The position numbers and the translations under genes are program-made. The notes beneath the pieces are model-generated. The model had not been told where the DNA came from. It saw only the letters and a list, made by a program, of their open reading frames with translations, and made no database searches. A DNA stretch of 64,000 nucleotides from Roseiflexus sp. RS-1 (lineage in GTDB: Bacteria > Chloroflexota > Chloroflexia > Chloroflexales > Roseiflexaceae), in assembly GCF_000016665.1 (NCBI RefSeq), contig NC_009523.1, forward strand, positions 620,001 to 684,000. Reading direction: 5' to 3'. This document shows, piece by piece, positions 4,600 through 55,925 of this stretch (positions within the stretch are counted from its first letter, which is position 1; each line of letters opens with the position of its first letter).

Positions 4600-5628
4600 T
4601 CACCTCCGGGCATACCCGCGTGACGTCGAACGCTGGCGGTACGGCATACTGAGCCATAACAGACCGGTCATGATAACCGCCGATGTCAGACACCACAGGC
4701 AGGTAGCTCCGATAACGAACGGTTCGAGGAAGGTGAGATAGATTGAGAACAGCGTGCCGATCAACGCCAGCGCTGGCAACAGCAAGGCGGCGCGCTCGCC
4801 AGATGTGCCAGGCAGGAGATGCGCTACAATCCACACGATCAGGATCGCGCCATATCCCGCAACACCTGCCGCACCAACCGGAATAGTGCCGAAGAGCCGT
4901 GCGAATTCGCTCTGCTGCACCGCGTTGCAGTCGCCCACCGGTCCGCATAGCGCCGGAGCGCCGGTTGTTTCGATGAAGGTCAGATACGCTGCCACCGCCA
5001 TGCCGCCAATCGCCAGCAATGGAATTGATCGGTCGCGCCAGCGGGTGGGCGGTTGAGCCGGGCGTGACCATGTGATTCCAGCCCACATCACAGTGAGCAG
5101 CATGCCGGCCAGCACGACAACGGCAAGCGCATTGGCTGGCAGGTCACGCAGGAAGGGTGGGGTTTCGGCAGTGGCGGGTGGGAGCGTCGGCGGCGCCGGG
5201 GCGCTCGTCGGCACAGTAGCGAGCAGGTCTGCCAGACCGGGGATCGGGGGCCAGTCGCTGCCGCCGCGTGCCAGGAGCGTTTCGATCAGACCCGGCAGGC
5301 GTTGTGGGATCTCGACAGAACCGACCAGCACCGTATCGCTGATGATCATGGTCGGAACGCCGCGGCGCGCTTCGGGAATAGCGTAGACAGCGATTGCCTC
5401 ACGGTAGAGCGCCGCGCCCTGCGCCTGATCGACATCAATCATCAAGATCTGCAACTGATCGCCGTATCGCTGTTGGAGTGGCGGCAGGTGCTCGCTGATA
5501 ACCATGTGGCAATGACCGCAGCGTGGAGAGTAGAACAGCACTGCGCGCACTGTTGCGGCGGCGGATGCAACCGACAGACTGAGCGTCAGCATACAGGAGA
5601 CTATGAGAGTGAGCAGAAAGCGACGCAT
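4600..5628 (-). CDS. Thioredoxin-like domain fused to vitamin K epoxide reductase (VKOR) domain
   Basis: The 342-residue exported membrane protein probably makes disulfide bonds outside the cytoplasm, passing electrons to quinone. It has a signal peptide (residues 1-24), a thioredoxin-fold domain with CGHC at 37-40 and a cis-Pro in GVPTM, a Pro/Thr linker (140-160), and a multi-helix VKOR domain with C228/C234 and the active-site CLWC at 310-313. I start it at 5628, where AAAGGAG precedes the ATG; the frame runs farther upstream but only through repeat DNA. Bacterial VKOR fusions usually carry thioredoxin at the C-terminus; here the order is reversed. It leads the operon with the zinc-ribbon and NUDIX genes. 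Confidence 0.9.
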   Translation of the reverse strand: MRRFLLTLIVSCMLTLSLSVASAAATVRAVLFYSPRCGHCHMVISEHLPPLQQRYGDQLQILMIDVDQAQGAALYREAIAVYAIPEARRGVPTMIISDTVLVGSVEIPQRLPGLIETLLARGGSDWPPIPGLADLLATVPTSAPAPPTLPPATAETPPFLRDLPANALAVVVLAGMLLTVMWAGITWSRPAQPPTRWRDRSIPLLAIGGMAVAAYLTFIETTGAPALCGPVGDCNAVQQSEFARLFGTIPVGAAGVAGYGAILIVWIVAHLLPGTSGERAALLLPALALIGTLFSIYLTFLEPFVIGATCLWCLTSAVIMTGLLWLSMPYRQRSTSRGYARR

Positions 5629-5695
5629 CGCAATCTCCTTTCCTGGTTGCCAGCATGATTGTACGTCGAAGTGCGGAGTGCGGGGGAGAAGTGTT

Positions 5696-5771
5696 GAGAA
5701 CCAGGAACTGAGAACTGAGAACCGGGAACCGGGAACCGAGAACCGAGAACCAGGAACCAGGATTTGAGAAC
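5696..5771. repeat. GAACC-type minisatellite, copy 1
   Basis: About 75 bases are built from short variants of GAGAACCGGGAACC and GAACTGAGAACT. The same motif family, read on the other strand, occurs at 24189-24251 and 41961-42014. It lies in the 356-base gap upstream of the thioredoxin-VKOR gene. The rest of that gap (5772-5984) shows no gene; it holds only a GCGC-rich stretch. Confidence 0.85.
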
Positions 5772-10169: not shown

Positions 10170-10250
10170 TCCGCTATACTGCGCTAGCCGTGGGGCTGAA
10201 GCCCTCGGCTAGCCAAGGCGAAGCCCGCCTGCGCGGGCTAGAGCGGATTA
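10168..10250. repeat. Nested palindromic (REP-like) repeat
   Basis: Two hairpins sit side by side: one at 10183-10213 (arms GCTAGCCG/CGGCTAGC) and one at 10222-10239 (AGCCCGC/GCGGGCT). Both are enclosed by an outer inverted pair AATCCGCTATA / TAGAGCGGATT with one mismatch. The AGCCCGCGCAGGCGGGCTTCGCC theme recurs at 55659-55673 and 55868-55883, which marks it as a dispersed repeat family. Confidence 0.7.
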
Positions 10251-10336
10251 TGTATTCAAAGACCATTAGCTACATAGATGTGAAAGTTGCCGACAAGTGT
10301 CGAAGGCGATCACTGCCCGGCGTCGGGGCACGGCAT

Positions 10337-10710
10337 GCCGTGCGCCGACGTTTCCGCCGCAGCGTGTTCTGCCGTGCGCCGACGTTTCCGCCGCAGCGTA
10401 GTCTGCCGTGCGCCGACGTTTCCGCCGCAGCGTAGTCTGCCGTGCGCCGACGTTTCCGCCGCAGCGTGTTCTGCCGTGCGCCGACGTTTCCGCCGCAGCG
10501 TGTTCTGCCGTGCGCCGACGTTTCCGCCGCAGCGTAGTCTGCCGTGCGCCGACGTTTCCGCCGCAGCGTGTTCTGCCGTGCGCCGACGTTTCCGCCACAG
10601 CGTGTTCTGCCGTGCGCCGACGTTTCCGCCGCAGCGTGGTCTGCCGTGCGCCGACGTTTCCGCCGCAGCGTAGTCTGCTGTGCCCCGACGTTTCCGCCGT
10701 AGCGTGGCAT
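10337..10710. repeat. 34-bp tandem repeat array, 11 units
   Basis: Eleven head-to-tail units of exactly 34 bases start with GCCGTGCGCCGACGTTTCC and end in GCGT plus a variable TGTTCT, TAGTCT or TGGTCT. Unit 8 has one base change and unit 11 is the most diverged. The sequence just before the array (CACTGCCCGGCGTCGGGG) also occurs at 9905-9939, before the MITE-like element. The period is not a multiple of three, so open frames across it are by-products. The remaining 211 bases to the next gene show nothing. Confidence 0.95.
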
Positions 10711-24188: not shown

Positions 24189-24251
24189 CTCAGTTCCTGG
24201 TTCCTGGTTCCCGGTTCTCAGTTCTCAGTTCCTGGTTCCCGGTTCTCAATT
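24189..24251. repeat. GAACC-type minisatellite, copy 2
   Basis: Sixty-three bases are built from GTTCCTGGTTCCTGG and GGTTCTCAGTTCTCA variants, the reverse complement of the array at 5696-5771 and in the same orientation as the one at 41961-42014. The last unit runs into the mreB stop codon, so the TCA of a TTCTCA unit supplies the stop. Confidence 0.85.
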
Positions 24252-40226: not shown

Positions 40227-41849
40227 CTAACAATCGGGCGTCCAGAACGCTTCCGGTGCAGCACAGCGTTGCAGATCGCGCGGCGTCTGCTCCGGTCCCG
40301 GATTGCCCGCCGCACCGCCGAGGTTCGTCGGTCCGCCAAGCGTCTGGATCGGCGCTGCCGGGGATGCAGCGCTTCCGGGCGTCCCGCCGCGATTCGCCGC
40401 GTCGAATGTCACGATGACCAGGCGACCGCTTTCGACACCCTGCACGCTCACCCGGTAGCGCCCGGCTGCCAGGACGACCCCCAGATCGACATCCACGCTG
40501 AACGCGCCACTGGAATCAACGTTCAGACTCGCCATACCAAGGACATCACCATCGGGGAAGGTCATCCAGACGCCGATCGGTTCGTCAGGCGCATACCCGG
40601 ACCCCTCGACTCGCACGACATCGGTTGCGCCGGATCGGTCAACGAAGGTCACAGCGACGCGCGCCGCTCCTTCGGTTGTGAGTGCGCTAAACGCTGAATT
40701 CCCCACATTCGACTCAACAACTGCCGGCACAGGTCCGGCGGGATTATTCACAGGCGCCGGTTGGAAACTCCCCGGCGTCACGTCGAAACTGGCAATCTGG
40801 AGTCGCCCGCTGGAAACTCCTTTGGCGGTAATACTGTAGCGACCGATCGGTAACCGCTCGTCCAGGTCGATCACAACGAAGAAATCGCCATTGCCATCGG
40901 CGACCTGCGTCGGCAGGCTGCGCACTGCATTGTTCGGCAGCGTCATCCACAAACCGACGTATTCGCCGGGAGAGAAGAGCGCCCCGGTGATTGCAATGCC
41001 GCCGTTCTGTCGGGTTGATGGTTGCGCCGGGTAGGCGACGCGCAGTTGCGCCCATCCGCTCGGCGTCGATGATCGCGCCCGCAGTTCGAACGGCGCAAAG
41101 ACCTGATACCCGCTCAGCGTGCCCAGCGCCGTAAACGTATATTTGCCGGTCTGATGCACATTGGTGAAAATGAATGACGACTGGAAGTTGCCAATGTCGC
41201 TGGCGACCTGTTGCGGATAGTCGAGCACAGTGCCGTCTGGTTGGGTGATCCAGATCGAGATCACCTCGTTGGGGAAGAAGTTGGCGCCGTGGATGTTGAT
41301 CAGGTCATCATGGAAGGCGAATGCGTTGAATGTACCGTTGTTCCACACTGCCAGACGCGCCGGACTGGGCGGGGGCGGCGGACCGGTGCGCGGAGTCACC
41401 ACCAGGTACCCGACTGCCGTCTGGCGGCTGCCCTGCCCGACCGCAGTCAGTTTGTAGCACCCATAGGGCCATTTATTTGTCACCGGAAACTCGAAATAGA
41501 GATCGCCCGCCACATCGGCGCGGTAGGGCGGCAACGCAAAGTGCGGCGGCAGATCGACGACGCCATCGAGGAAGAAGGTATCGTTCGGGCTGAAGATGCG
41601 ACCGTCGGGGAACTGGAAACTGATGGTCACTCCTTCCTGATCGAGGAATCCATGCAGTTCCGATCCAAAGATACTGTTCTGAAATGTCGCTGGCGCCGAT
41701 TGACCGGTGAGCGCGCATGGCGCCGTCGTCGGACCGCGCACGATGTACACCGCAGCAGCGCTGGCGCGATAGGCGAAGATGACCGTGCCCACTCCGATGA
41801 GGAGCATAACGAAAACGATCCCCCGATAGAAGATACCCCGTGGTTTCAT
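40227..41849 (-). CDS. Exported protein with repeated beta-sandwich modules
   Basis: The 540-residue product starts at 41849 (GGAGAT six bases upstream) with a signal-anchor helix, GIVFVMLLIGVGTVIFA. It contains at least three related modules of roughly 100 residues that repeat the pattern xxGxxFxPxExxxxWxTxPDG (ISIWITQPDG, VGLWMTLPNN, IGVWMTFPDG), each ending in a strand such as GRYSITAKGVSSGRL or GRYRVSVQGVESGRL. These look like Ig-like surface modules; an N-terminal region precedes them and a Pro/Gly-rich tail ending in Cys follows. No catalytic site was seen. Upstream is a GAACC-type repeat. Confidence 0.8.
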   Translation of the reverse strand: MKPRGIFYRGIVFVMLLIGVGTVIFAYRASAAAVYIVRGPTTAPCALTGQSAPATFQNSIFGSELHGFLDQEGVTISFQFPDGRIFSPNDTFFLDGVVDLPPHFALPPYRADVAGDLYFEFPVTNKWPYGCYKLTAVGQGSRQTAVGYLVVTPRTGPPPPPSPARLAVWNNGTFNAFAFHDDLINIHGANFFPNEVISIWITQPDGTVLDYPQQVASDIGNFQSSFIFTNVHQTGKYTFTALGTLSGYQVFAPFELRARSSTPSGWAQLRVAYPAQPSTRQNGGIAITGALFSPGEYVGLWMTLPNNAVRSLPTQVADGNGDFFVVIDLDERLPIGRYSITAKGVSSGRLQIASFDVTPGSFQPAPVNNPAGPVPAVVESNVGNSAFSALTTEGAARVAVTFVDRSGATDVVRVEGSGYAPDEPIGVWMTFPDGDVLGMASLNVDSSGAFSVDVDLGVVLAAGRYRVSVQGVESGRLVIVTFDAANRGGTPGSAASPAAPIQTLGGPTNLGGAAGNPGPEQTPRDLQRCAAPEAFWTPDC

Positions 41850-41960: not shown

Positions 41961-42014
41961 GCGGTTCCTGGTTCCTGGTTCCTGGTTCTCAGTTCTCAGT
42001 TCTTGGTTCTCTTC
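41961..42014. repeat. GAACC-type minisatellite, copy 3
   Basis: Fifty-four bases consist of GGTTCCTGGTTCCTGG units followed by TTCTCAGTTCTCAGTTCTTGG, the same family and orientation as the array at 24189-24251. It is upstream of the exported multi-module protein. The region from here to 42275 has no other clear gene. Confidence 0.85.
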
Positions 42015-42275
42015 AAGCCTAAAGAAGGCGCGCAATACTACCTAGCGGTGTATATGACAGCCGGATGACAGGTTCATCACAAACTGGTTGTGCTCGCCTG
42101 ATACGATGCACAATCGCAGCATATGTGCACCTGGCAGTAGAAGCATGTTTGGTTGCATTGCACGCTTTTCAAGCGTATGGCGACGTGCTACAATGCGAAG
42201 CAGGCACGTGGCGCGGTGTTTCTTGTACAGCGCGAGCGCTCGCGCCACCGGTTTGACCATGCAGAAAGGGTTTTC

Positions 42276-43571
42276 ATGATGCATTCTTTCCGCCTCTCCG
42301 CACTGGTGGCGCTGGTCGCTCTCGTTCTGTCCGGATGCAGCGTTTCACTTGGCACACCACCGACCGCCACTCCCGAACCTCGCCCGACCGCCACGCCCCG
42401 CCCGACCGCCACACCCCGCCCGACTGCCACACCGCTCCCGACCGCAGCGCCAACTGCGCAACCGCAACCGACGATCATGCCCACGAGTCCGTCAGGTGGA
42501 ACGGGGACAGGCTCAGGAATGCTGATCCCGGTTGTTATTGATCGCCTGGAAACATTCAGCCATCCGCAGCGATTGTTCAGCATCGACGTGCCGGTCGGCT
42601 GGAGTTTGCAGGAAAACGCGAATGCGAACACGCTGGTCTATATCTGGACCGATGCTGCTGAAAACGGGCTGATCATCCTGAGCATCACCGAGTCGCAGGA
42701 AGCGTTGACGCAGGACGATCTGGTGGAGCGTGCGACTTCATTCGTCAACATCTTCAAGGACGAGAAGGATTTCTCGATGGACCCGCCGGAAAAACTGCGC
42801 AGCGGCGGCGTGCAGATCATCTGGAGTTACACTGCGCAGGCGAGCGGCGGGGTCGATGCGCCATTGCTGGCGAATACATTCGTCTACCGGGATGTCGATA
42901 AAGTGTCGCTCCTGACGTTCGGCATTCCGAGAGAACAGTTCGACGAACTCAAATCCCCGCTCGATGCCATCCTGCAATCGTATGTGATCGATCCCGCCGT
43001 TCCTCTCTCGGGTGATTCGTCCGTCACGCGCTTTGCGTTCGATTTTATCGACGATGACAACGCCTGGGTGACCGACTCCTCGGCGAGTCTCCAGGCAGTG
43101 ATCGAAGAGGGGGTCTATCGCATTACGCTCAGCGATTCCGATCTGTACTACCTGACGGCGCCGGACGTCAGCCCGGCAAACGACCTGGAGGTGAGTGCGG
43201 ATGTGCTGATCAACGGCAATTCGCGCGCTGGCGTCGCGGTGCGTTACAGCCCAGGCAGTCGAGGCAATGCTAAGAACTACTACGCCTGCTGGATCGATGG
43301 GCGTGACCGGTACGGCTGTTTCGTCTCGGTCGATGACCGCTGGACGACGCTGCGCGAGCCGATCAGCAATGCCGCCATCAAGCCGGGAAGGGTCAACCGG
43401 GTATCGCTGAGAGCAGAGGGGAACAGGATTAGCTTCAGTGTGAATGGCGTTCAATTGCAGACCTTTACCGATACCCGCGTCGCTGCCGGACAGGCGGCGC
43501 TCTATCTGGAAAACTTTGACACCCAGGCAGGCGCGGATTTTGACAACGTGGTTGTCACGCTGTTGAAATAA
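42276..43571 (+). CDS. Lipoprotein with Pro-Thr linker and concanavalin-like C-terminal domain
   Basis: The 431-residue product starts at 42276 (AAAGGG six bases upstream) with a lipoprotein signal (VALVLSGC). A spacer of repeated PTATP units, encoded by imperfect 18-bp DNA repeats, follows. Residues about 95-250 form a domain with RLFSIDVPVGWSLQEN, and the C-terminal 180 residues (VSADVLINGNSRAGVAVRY, NRISFSVNGVQLQTF, NFDTQAGADFDNVVV) resemble concanavalin-like jelly rolls. It is probably a surface protein that may bind glycans. Ligand unknown. Confidence 0.82.
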   Translation: MMHSFRLSALVALVALVLSGCSVSLGTPPTATPEPRPTATPRPTATPRPTATPLPTAAPTAQPQPTIMPTSPSGGTGTGSGMLIPVVIDRLETFSHPQRLFSIDVPVGWSLQENANANTLVYIWTDAAENGLIILSITESQEALTQDDLVERATSFVNIFKDEKDFSMDPPEKLRSGGVQIIWSYTAQASGGVDAPLLANTFVYRDVDKVSLLTFGIPREQFDELKSPLDAILQSYVIDPAVPLSGDSSVTRFAFDFIDDDNAWVTDSSASLQAVIEEGVYRITLSDSDLYYLTAPDVSPANDLEVSADVLINGNSRAGVAVRYSPGSRGNAKNYYACWIDGRDRYGCFVSVDDRWTTLREPISNAAIKPGRVNRVSLRAEGNRISFSVNGVQLQTFTDTRVAAGQAALYLENFDTQAGADFDNVVVTLLK

Positions 43572-48183: not shown

Positions 48184-49257
48184 TCAGCAATCGGCGTTGG
48201 TGGCGCGGTCGCTGCGCTCTGCTTCTCCGGAGAGCGCTTCCCCGGCTTCTTCGGCAAAACTGTACATGTCGATCTGCAACCGGCGCGCTGCCTCGCGCGC
48301 TCTGGCGTCGATCATCGGCGAGATGATCATCAACCGATCCGCCTGCCGCGCATGGCGCTGTTCATACCAGCGCGCCTTGCGTTCAAAGGCGTAGACGTCT
48401 GCTTTGCTCACTGAGGACTTGATTTCACAGATGATCAACAGCCCGTTTTTGATGATCAGGTCGAGTTCGATCTGATCCGGACGACCGAAGACGGCGCCGG
48501 TATCGTCATATTCAATGACGTTGATGACTTCGATGTTGAAGAACCCGGTTAGAATCCCCCTGAGAGCATTACGGAAGGACTGTTCGGAGTACAACCCCCA
48601 GCGTGCGCCCAGAGCGCCAATAGTGGAGTCATATTTGCGATCCAGCGCTTCCATGCGCCGGATCATCGCCATGATTTCCCGGTGATCTTCTTCCCATTTG
48701 CGGTTGGCTTCATCTTGCATGGCTTTAAGGGCGCGCTGATTTTCGTCCCACGTGCGGCGGGCTTCATCTTGCGCGGCTTTGAGGGCGCGCTGATTTTCGT
48801 CCCATTTGCGGTTTTGTTCTTCCCATTTGCGGTTGGCTTCGTCTTGCATGGCTTTGAGGGCGCGCTGATTTTCGTCCCAGGTGCGGCGGGCTTCATCTTG
48901 CGCGGCTTTGAGGGCGCGCTGATTTTCGTCCCAGGTGCGGCGGGCTTCATCTTGCGCGGCTTTGAGGGCGCGCTGATTTTCGTCCCATTTGCGGTTTTGT
49001 TCTTCCCATTTGCGGTTGGCTTCGTCTTGCATGGCTTTGAGGGCGCGCTGATTTTCGTCCCAGGTGCGGCGTTGTTCTTCCCGGTCACGGCGCAATTCTT
49101 CCAGCACGCGGTCGAACCGGCTCTCGGTTTCGCCGCGATTGGCGAAATGTTGCTGCGCCAGCCGCAGGATAAGTTGCCGGACGTCAGCGTCCTGCTCCAG
49201 GATAGCGGGCAATTCTTGAAGAATGATGGCTTTAACGTGTTCGCGCTCCAGCGGCAT
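48184..49257 (-). CDS. Repetitive coiled-coil protein with PD-(D/E)XK-like nuclease domain
   Basis: The 357-residue product has an N-terminal region (residues 1-55), a long repetitive coiled coil (about 60-200) and a C-terminal domain. The coil is made of 18-residue units (KAAQDEARRTWDENQRAL) and 25-residue units (with the extra NRKWEEQ), encoded by near-identical DNA repeats. The C-terminal domain has IELDLIIKNGLLIICEIKSS, matching the D-X(n)-E-X-K core of PD-(D/E)XK nucleases, as in DUF3782-type proteins. Function unknown; a DNA-related or defence role is possible. The opposite strand also has a long open frame across the repeats, which I consider a shadow. Confidence 0.85.
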   Translation of the reverse strand: MPLEREHVKAIILQELPAILEQDADVRQLILRLAQQHFANRGETESRFDRVLEELRRDREEQRRTWDENQRALKAMQDEANRKWEEQNRKWDENQRALKAAQDEARRTWDENQRALKAAQDEARRTWDENQRALKAMQDEANRKWEEQNRKWDENQRALKAAQDEARRTWDENQRALKAMQDEANRKWEEDHREIMAMIRRMEALDRKYDSTIGALGARWGLYSEQSFRNALRGILTGFFNIEVINVIEYDDTGAVFGRPDQIELDLIIKNGLLIICEIKSSVSKADVYAFERKARWYEQRHARQADRLMIISPMIDARAREAARRLQIDMYSFAEEAGEALSGEAERSDRATNADC

Positions 49258-53985: not shown

Positions 53986-55043
53986 ATGTGTAAGTATCGA
54001 TCCATTATCGAAAATCCGGAGAAATTACGCTCTATGACCGGACTGACCGTTGAAGAGTTCCACGCGCTGGTTCCGATCTTCCACGCCGCATTTGAAGCGT
54101 ATATGAAACGTCGCACGATTGATGGCCGCGTCCGATATTGTCGTCGCTACGTCTCGTATGCAAACTCGCCGCTTCCGACAACAGAAGATAAATTGCTCTT
54201 TATTTTGACCTACTTAAAACAAAACCCAACGCAAGTGATGCACGGACACCTCTTTCAAATGAGCCAATCAAACGTAAGCAAATGGGTGCATCTTTTGCAC
54301 GGAGCGCTGAACTATGCGCTTTCACAGCAAAATCTCCTGCCTGCGCGCACTGCCGACGACCTGGCGAGGCGATTGCAGGAAGAACCGTCGTGTGAAGAAC
54401 CGTCGTGTGAAGAACCGTCGTGTGAAGAACCGTCGTGTGAAGAACCGTCGTGTGAAGAACCGTCGTGTGAAGAACCGTCGTGTGAAGAACCGTCGCATGC
54501 GACAAAAGCGCCCCCCTTTTTATCCATGACGGCGTAGAACGTCCCATTCGCCGTCCAAGCGACAAAGTCGACCGGGAGTTGTATTACAGCGGTAAGAAGA
54601 AACGACATACGCTTAAGAACGTTCTCATCATTGATGAGTTTGGCTCTATTCACTTTTTGAGTGACACCTACGAAGGAAGGGTCCACGATAAATGTATTGC
54701 GGATGAAGCGGGATACACCCTTCCAAACGCGAGCATTCTCTATCAAGACGCCGGATTTCAAGGATTTACCCTGCCTGGCGTCCAGATTATGCAGCCAAAG
54801 AAGAAGCCGCGCAATGGAACCCTCACGCCGCAGGAAAAGGAGGAAAACCGGCGTATCTCATCCGTTCGCGTTCGTATTGAACATGTTATCGGCGATATCA
54901 AGCGGTATCGAATCATTCACGACATTATCCGCTTCAGTTGTTCCGAATTTCGGGATATGGTCATGGAAACATGTTGCGGGCTGCATAACTTCCGAATTTG
55001 GCTGAAACGCAAAAAGCAGTCCAAAAATCAAAACGAATCTTGA
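53986..55043 (+). pseudogene. IS5-like transposase (DDE_Tnp_4), split by a -1 frame change
   Basis: The first frame (53986-54537) gives an N-terminal helix-turn-helix half (LTVEEFHALVPIFHAAF, PTTEDKLLFILTYLKQ, FQMSQSNVSKWVHLLHG). The catalytic half continues in the -1 frame from about 54501 (LFIHDGVERPIRRP, YYSGKKKRHTLKN, DTYEGRVHDK, YQDAGFQGF, RIEHVIGDIKRYR). The switch lies near the run of six C and five T at 54511-54521. Programmed -1 frameshifting (CTTTTTA, imperfect heptamer) or simple inactivation are both possible. An EEPSC repeat was expanded just before. GGAG precedes the ATG. Confidence 0.85.
54379..54498 (+). repeat. 15-bp tandem repeat inside the transposase
   Basis: Seven exact copies of GAAGAACCGTCGTGT and one diverged eighth copy encode EEPSC repeats between the two transposase halves. 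The period keeps the reading frame. Related transposases, as I recall them, have only one such unit here, so this looks like recent slippage. Confidence 0.9.
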
Positions 55044-55639: not shown

Positions 55640-55925
55640 GAGAATGAAATCCGGTATAGCCCGCGCAGCGGGCGTCGCCCCGCTTAGCCGAGGGGTTCAC
55701 TCCGACGGCACGCGGCACATACCGGAACTTAATGCTCCAATCTTCACAGCCCTCCCTGAGCGCGTGGGAGCCCCTGCGGGGCTGGAGCGTCTCTGCGGGG
55801 GTGCGCGCCTCCGGCGCGCACCTGAGGTGGCGTCTCTCCCGCTCCTGGAGTAGGGCGCACGACTCTCGCCCGCGCAGGCGGGCGTCGCCCCACAGTCCCC
55901 CACGCATGCGGGGCTTCCACGGGTG
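55640..55925. repeat. Cluster of GC-rich short palindromes (REP-like)
   Basis: Within 290 bases there are at least five short palindromes: around 55659-55673 (GCCCGCGCAGCGGGC), 55770-55782 (GCCCCTGCGGGGC), 55802-55820 (TGCGCGCCTCCGGCGCGCA), 55868-55883 (GCCCGCGCAGGCGGGC) and about 55897-55913. Two share the theme at 10222-10239. The whole 55338-56123 gap has no recognisable gene; its short open frames on both strands are artefacts of the repeats. Confidence 0.75.

Follow-up and report, generated by a model that had tools for sequence, protein, structure and literature searches.

Do the short repeats at three distant intergenic sites of Roseiflexus sp. RS-1 belong to one family, and what governs where they lie? 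The window analysed here is the whole stretch of 64,000 nucleotides from base 620001 to base 684000 of the genome (G000, a single contig of 5,801,598 bases), and all three sites prove to be tandem arrays of the heptamer GTTCYYR, in which a near-fixed GTTC is followed by YYR (Table 1). The preliminary description of this DNA had recognised the repeats at the three sites, had reported one copy as inverted and had assigned the mreB stop codon to the middle one; each point holds, site 1 being oriented opposite to sites 2 and 3 and the last unit of site 2, GTTCTCA, containing the reverse of TGA. The repeat unit is 7 bases long, not 9 or 14 as first given. We favour, with a probability of about 0.55, the reading that the sites are lineage-specific heptamer arrays that are inherited in place, turn over their units rapidly and are polar toward gene edges, where selection acts.

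Table 1. GTTCYYR arrays in the window and the stop codon that one of them provides (window positions; arrays are read as GTTCYYR).
Feature	Position	Strand	Description
Site 1	5695-5771	-	GTTCYYR array of 11 heptamers, the first ones degenerate
Site 2	24193-24248	+	GTTCYYR array of 8 heptamers, the 3' end running into the mreB stop codon
Site 3	41964-42012	+	GTTCYYR array of 7 heptamers, in a spacer between divergent genes
mreB stop TGA	24246-24248	-	Provided by the last site 2 unit, GTTCTCA (24242-24248)

When up to two mismatches are allowed, GTTCYYNGTTCYYNGTTC matches the window 22 times, always within sites 1-3 (0.28 matches expected; largest count 3 among 100 shuffles). The 3' end of site 1 lies 66 nt from the start of a VKOR/thioredoxin-like gene (4600-5628, minus strand), site 3 lies 114 nt from the start of one gene (40227-41849, minus strand) and 164 nt from that of another (42177-43571, plus strand), and the gene terminated by site 2 encodes MreB/Mbl (Pfam, E 5.9e-139). 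The earlier remark that the sites lie upstream of minus-strand genes is accurate for all three (66, 66 and 114 nt), although site 3 also precedes a plus-strand gene. As a placement rule it fails, the arrays being divided 54:54 between the strands genome-wide, and what was seen in the window is local gene order. Rfam gave four gathering-level matches in the window and none at the three array sites; isolated matches to CRISPR-DR28 occur at 10217-10240 and 55866-55889 (40.5 and 38.1 bits, cut-off 35). The window also carries a 34-base tandem unit at 10336-10707 (10.9 copies, 95%), nested repeats of 27, 54, 75, 129 and 183 bases at 48683-49082 inside a called gene (48184-49257, minus strand), and a perfect 15-base unit, GAAGAACCGTCGTGT, at 54379-54495 (7.8 copies).

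The shared family proposed in the preliminary description is borne out across the RS-1 genome, where the 19-base core GGTTCYYRGTTCYYRGTTC has 764 matches (413 + 351) against 4 (0 + 4) for the reversed pattern. A catalogue was drawn from about 10 kb around 89 + 39 array ends (two end patterns) together with the window, 986,710 bases in all, within which 131 GTTC runs were reduced to 114 by requiring YYR units and to 108 arrays by merging runs within 60 b, a lower bound because arrays whose ends escaped both end patterns fall outside the set. The arrays have a median of 11.5 units and a maximum of 49, and total 10,540 bases. Base frequencies by position in 94 arrays of at least 6 units (G 0.98, T 0.98, T 0.97, C 0.99, C/T 0.27/0.72, C/T 0.61/0.37, A/G 0.35/0.63) show that the variable positions vary nearly always by transitions. 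Identity of adjacent units is flat from 5' to 3' (0.24, 0.21, 0.23, 0.22), which gives no sign of a growth gradient along the array and fits internal turnover; the first heptamer beyond the array is more unit-like on the 5' side (4.26/7) than on the 3' side (2.97, random 2.49).

Gene starts were taken from our own gene caller with the arrays masked. Under these settings all 108 arrays are flanked by called genes and overlap them at most at their ends; without masking, 18 of 94 arrays were called within genes, 17 of these on the largely stop-free array strand. Being tandem with a period of 7, present in three or more copies at many loci and near-exclusively non-coding, the family belongs with the dispersed intergenic heptanucleotide SSRs of the STRR-like class. 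The STRR repeats of heterocystous cyanobacteria likewise form short tandem arrays of heptamers at scattered loci of a filamentous phototroph, with units unlike GTTCYYR. A survey of periods 4-21 found period 7 to be the commonest in RS-1 (122 arrays), followed by its multiples 14 (45) and 21 (21), and in the nearest relative, G001, to exceed each other single period (26/59 arrays), both samples having been chosen through array matches and so being biased. The 179 period-7 segments of RS-1 comprise 94 GTTCYYR, 55 GTTGMRN, 11 GGYTATC, 1 GAGRGGY and 18 others, and GGGGTTA is a further heptamer family.

GTTCYYRGTTCYYRGTTCYYR matches 13 of 60 genomes (RS-1 and 59 relatives), with 1084 matches in RS-1 itself and 387, 218, 52, 460 and 509 in five other genus members, so that the core is present in 5/5 of those searched; most other family and order members among the 60 genomes gave zero matches. 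Two genomes of another family, G038 and G041, have 57 and 62, the reversed control in G041 being high (18 + 20) because GTTCTTG is its own mirror. The counts of GGTTAGGGGTTANGGGTTANGG are as follows: RS-1 0, G001 0, G002 180, G003 26, G004 11, G005 29. Beyond these relatives, an exact five-unit scan of genome contigs returned at least 118 stretches, including Roseiflexus, Oscillochloris and many single matches in other phyla, and 20 of the loci among the matches listed were inspected. Among those listed, GTTCYYR-type arrays lie on several contigs each of Terriglobia MAG SRVP_7 (L238, L250, L273, L275) and Fulvivirga imtechensis AK7 (L229, L269, L288), single genomes from unrelated phyla. Viral contigs contained at least 120 stretches of four GTTCYYR units against 73, 23 and 67 for three control heptamers, too weak an excess for a claim.

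In relatives, the place of site 1 carries GTTCYYR in G001, G003, G005 and, in degenerate form, G004; the array is missing in G009, and the G002 contigs end there. That of site 2 carries GTTCYYR in G001 and G002, while in G003, G004 and G005 the place after mreB is taken by GGGGTTA/CCCYTRA heptamers, with the mreB stop, TAG, abutting the array; G009 has a short GTTCAAC-like stretch alone and G008 none. For site 3 GTTCYYR is found in G001 and G002 and in degenerate form in G003, and none was seen in the G005 and G009 stretches. Array sites thus persist while the heptamer type may differ by lineage.

A comparison of further arrays with G001 bears on the mobile or gene-converted origin thought likely in the preliminary description, which finds little support. 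Of 36 rows returned in the comparison with the sampled 445 kb of G001, the 17 labelled GTTCYYR with both flanks present were counted, and 13 arrays sit at the same place (12 present by label, and the array at 644193, with 4 units, by eye), another 3 have no counterpart there, and in 1 case a CTTCTCA-like heptamer stands instead. Mobility is therefore probably not the main mode; most arrays stay put while their units turn over. The rival reading, in which mobile or ectopically copied repeats spread through transposition or gene conversion and come to dock at places that tolerate an insertion, would account for those 3 absences and the replacement, and also for the 27 of 108 arrays whose masked flank recurs, equally oriented, at another array locus. 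Four loci (L034, 283031; L102, 362766; L039, 764249; L061, 2562572) make up a cluster with shared flanks, and inspection by eye shows the same flank, GTTCYYR array and GGCTATC composite, possibly a copied or mobile composite. The three array-free sites have divergent spacers, and alignments of the differing sites show by eye no clear target duplication. The shared flanks, moreover, result at least partly from an inserted 341-base element and not from an array border, and with 13/17 arrays unmoved we regard spread by mobility as an unlikely origin for the family. The element itself lies inside GTTCYYR arrays at three loci (genome coordinates: L033, 254692-255032; L085, 4352196-4352536; L092, 5056225-5056565; 93-100% alike) with ends GAGCCTATCCGAA / TTCGGATAGGCTC adjoining CTTA/TTA, and a longer insert with the same ends occurs at L055 (2165708-2166568); the element appears to land in these arrays.

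Placement of the arrays follows a rule: one specific end, the 3' end of GTTCYYR, docks at a start codon or at an opposite-strand stop codon. The 3' neighbour is a same-strand start for 79 arrays and an opposite-strand stop for 29, and the 5' neighbour is a same-strand stop for 64 and an opposite-strand start for 44. Counting an end as docked when it lies within -13 to +10 nt of the start or stop codon, 35/79 starts and 23/29 stops are docked at the 3' end, and 3/64 stops and 3/44 starts at the 5' end (58/108 versus 6/108 overall, Fisher 1.2e-15). Sliding the arrays within their own spacers (2000 runs) gave 3' means of 7.4 and 4.9 with maxima of 16 and 10 against the observed 35 and 23, and 5' means of 7.3 (stops) and 5.0 (starts) against 3 and 3. 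Convergent spacers are avoided (4/108 arrays versus 93/638 array-free spacers). About half of the arrays are undocked, sites 1 and 3 among them; in the window only site 2 docks (-3 nt), the next start lying 66 nt from site 1 and 164 nt from site 3. The preliminary description had named random placement relative to genes and an unconserved core as evidence against its reading, and genome-wide the core is conserved and the placement non-random. The polarity recurs in G001, where 22 arrays were found and 19 are flanked by genes on both sides, with 12/19 docked at the 3' end (starts 8/14, stops 4/5) and 0/19 at the 5' end (0/10 and 0/9). In G038, from another family, 3' docking occurs at stops (4/6) and not at starts (0/7).

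The other heptamers occupy edges of their own. In 34 tandem spacers examined by eye, a frequent order is stop codon, GTTGMRN array, CCCG or similar, GTTCYYR array and start codon, the stop often being the TGA of GTTGA. GTTGMRN arrays in RS-1 have their 5' end at same-strand stops (28/59) and rarely their 3' end at starts (3/64), and in docked cases of both families the purine-rich strand is directed away from the gene. A second rival would derive the polarity from a selection filter only, stop-overlapping arrays surviving only when so oriented that they supply a stop. Stops in all frames are indeed present on the purine-rich strand of 51/108 arrays and on the other strand of 6/108, stop triplets lie on the strand following the gene in other families (TGA in GTTGMRN, TAG in GGGGTTA), and stop-side distances are negative in 19/29 arrays. 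Such a filter helps at stops, but leaves over the start docking of 35/79 versus 3/44 at the other end, and the Xanthomonas heptamer GGGAATC, by our own reading without a stop triplet on either strand, nevertheless has the same polarity in the available text of PMC4692102. As a sufficient account the filter is likewise unlikely.

None of the 26 genes with an array at -2 to +5 nt of the start has a Shine-Dalgarno motif (GGAG, GAGG or AGGA at -20 to -4) compared with 248/549 background genes, while the motif is found in 12/21 genes whose array lies 6-18 nt from the start. Among the 26, 22 score above 100, 20 were laid out and the first 12 were traced in G001, G003 and G009. An array unit precedes the start in G001 in 11/12 of them, at an identical distance from the start codon in 9/11, and in G003 one to four units do so in 7/12, with the same distance in 3/7; in G009 no array units were seen before the start in 9/9 traced genes. 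Unit numbers in RS-1 and G001 meanwhile differ widely (24/4, 10/16, 32/10, 41/1). Array-free orthologues of start-docked genes mostly lack a Shine-Dalgarno motif as well, suggesting that these genes may never have relied on it.

These observations invite a third rival, functional punctuation, in which a start-docked array would act as a pyrimidine-rich, Shine-Dalgarno-free leader for initiation and the stop-docked families as stop buffers. The missing motif (0/26) and the fixed junction (9/11) are consistent with it, as is the scarcity of ATG on the pyrimidine-rich strand (2/108 arrays); -10-like hexamers within 40 nt of the array 5' end in 5/11 divergent cases, against 3/11 and 1/11 further upstream, add a weak hint. 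Against it, copy number ranges from 41 to 1 between orthologues, and GTTCTC ends at -9 to -1 before none of 534 array-free starts; such a role is distinctly improbable. Before those 534 starts the dominant motif is Shine-Dalgarno; with GGTTCT found in the same interval at 6/534, single-copy GTTCTC or GGTTCT was rejected as a general initiation signal. A G-quadruplex or other DNA-structure effect, as put forward for the heptamers of Xanthomonas and Nostoc, is very improbable here, given that a four-run G3 pattern capable of forming a quadruplex occurs in 3/108 arrays, even though the purine fraction of one array strand is 0.71 and the available text of PMC4060949, which names Roseiflexus once, lists its oligopurine/oligopyrimidine stretches and mirror repeats as moderately over-represented.

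Returning to arrays inherited in place under gene-edge selection, the unit turnover would most likely come from slippage during replication and from recombination within an array. Each array directs its pyrimidine-rich strand at a gene edge, and in about half of the arrays the last unit abuts a start, or supplies or abuts an opposite-strand stop. With the gene-proximal junction constant from one species to the next and the copy number variable, units are probably gained and lost on the gene-distal side, a behaviour suggested by the 12 traced genes. Start-docked arrays take the leader position of genes without a Shine-Dalgarno motif, and stop-docked arrays place stop triplets on the coding strand. 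The exact ending is most likely set by selection on gene edges, arrays otherwise filling the spacer freely. Gene-edge selection alone, however, predicts equal ends at starts, and the observed ends differ greatly.

Bacterial tandem repeats are very often heptamers, and the published case of one-ended placement at gene edges is tied to G-quadruplexes. In the available text of Rehm et al. (2015; PMC4692102), the G-rich heptamers GGGAATC of Xanthomonas and GGGGA(C/T)T of Nostoc sp. PCC 7120 are G4-forming, and the 5' end of their purine-rich strand lies near the ORF, on the non-coding strand ahead of starts and on the coding strand past stops; a proposal cited there links the abundance of heptamers to the stretch of DNA that the polymerase holds. 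GTTCYYR shares with these repeats the period of 7, the dispersed intergenic occurrence and the same ORF-edge polarity at starts and stops (in G038 at stops, not starts), and also the way most arrays keep the same neighbouring genes from one relative to another while length and sequence vary. It differs in its unit and in quadruplex capacity (3/108 arrays versus G4-forming), and in Roseiflexus the junctions often fall within a few nt, several families share a spacer, and the family at one site varies by species. GTTCYYR is thus Rehm-like in behaviour without being that repeat, and the polarity is separated from quadruplex formation.

The nearest counterpart at start codons is the TAACTGA direct repeat of marine Beggiatoaceae (MacGregor, 2015; PMC4679880), which in the available text is directed toward start codons, most often ends 1 nt upstream and mostly lacks an RBS; some copies overlap the end of the upstream gene, and 12/170 sets of two to six copies each are directed toward a stop codon (Table 1 of that paper). 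Both are intergenic heptamers aimed at the start codon and mostly RBS-free, whereas GTTCYYR has a median of 11.5 units, a degenerate YYR and strong stop-side docking. Identity with TAACTGA is excluded by the GTTCYYR unit. In the literature searched, no description of GTTCYYR arrays in Roseiflexus was recognised. One-sided heptamer placement has been published, as far as the available texts go, in Xanthomonas and Nostoc and start docking in Beggiatoaceae, and Roseiflexus represents another phylum. It is highly doubtful that the heptamer families form a putative punctuation system, with start-docked GTTCYYR as an alternative, Shine-Dalgarno-free leader that recruits ribosomes and stop-docked families as all-frame stop buffers, the same logic having arisen independently in Chloroflexota, Xanthomonas, cyanobacteria and Beggiatoaceae. 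Roseiflexus nonetheless displays the same polarity as the published heptamers, often within a few nt and with units that are mostly not quadruplex-capable, and its several families side by side, together with relatives at graded distances, make explanations by slippage, selection and leader function separable.
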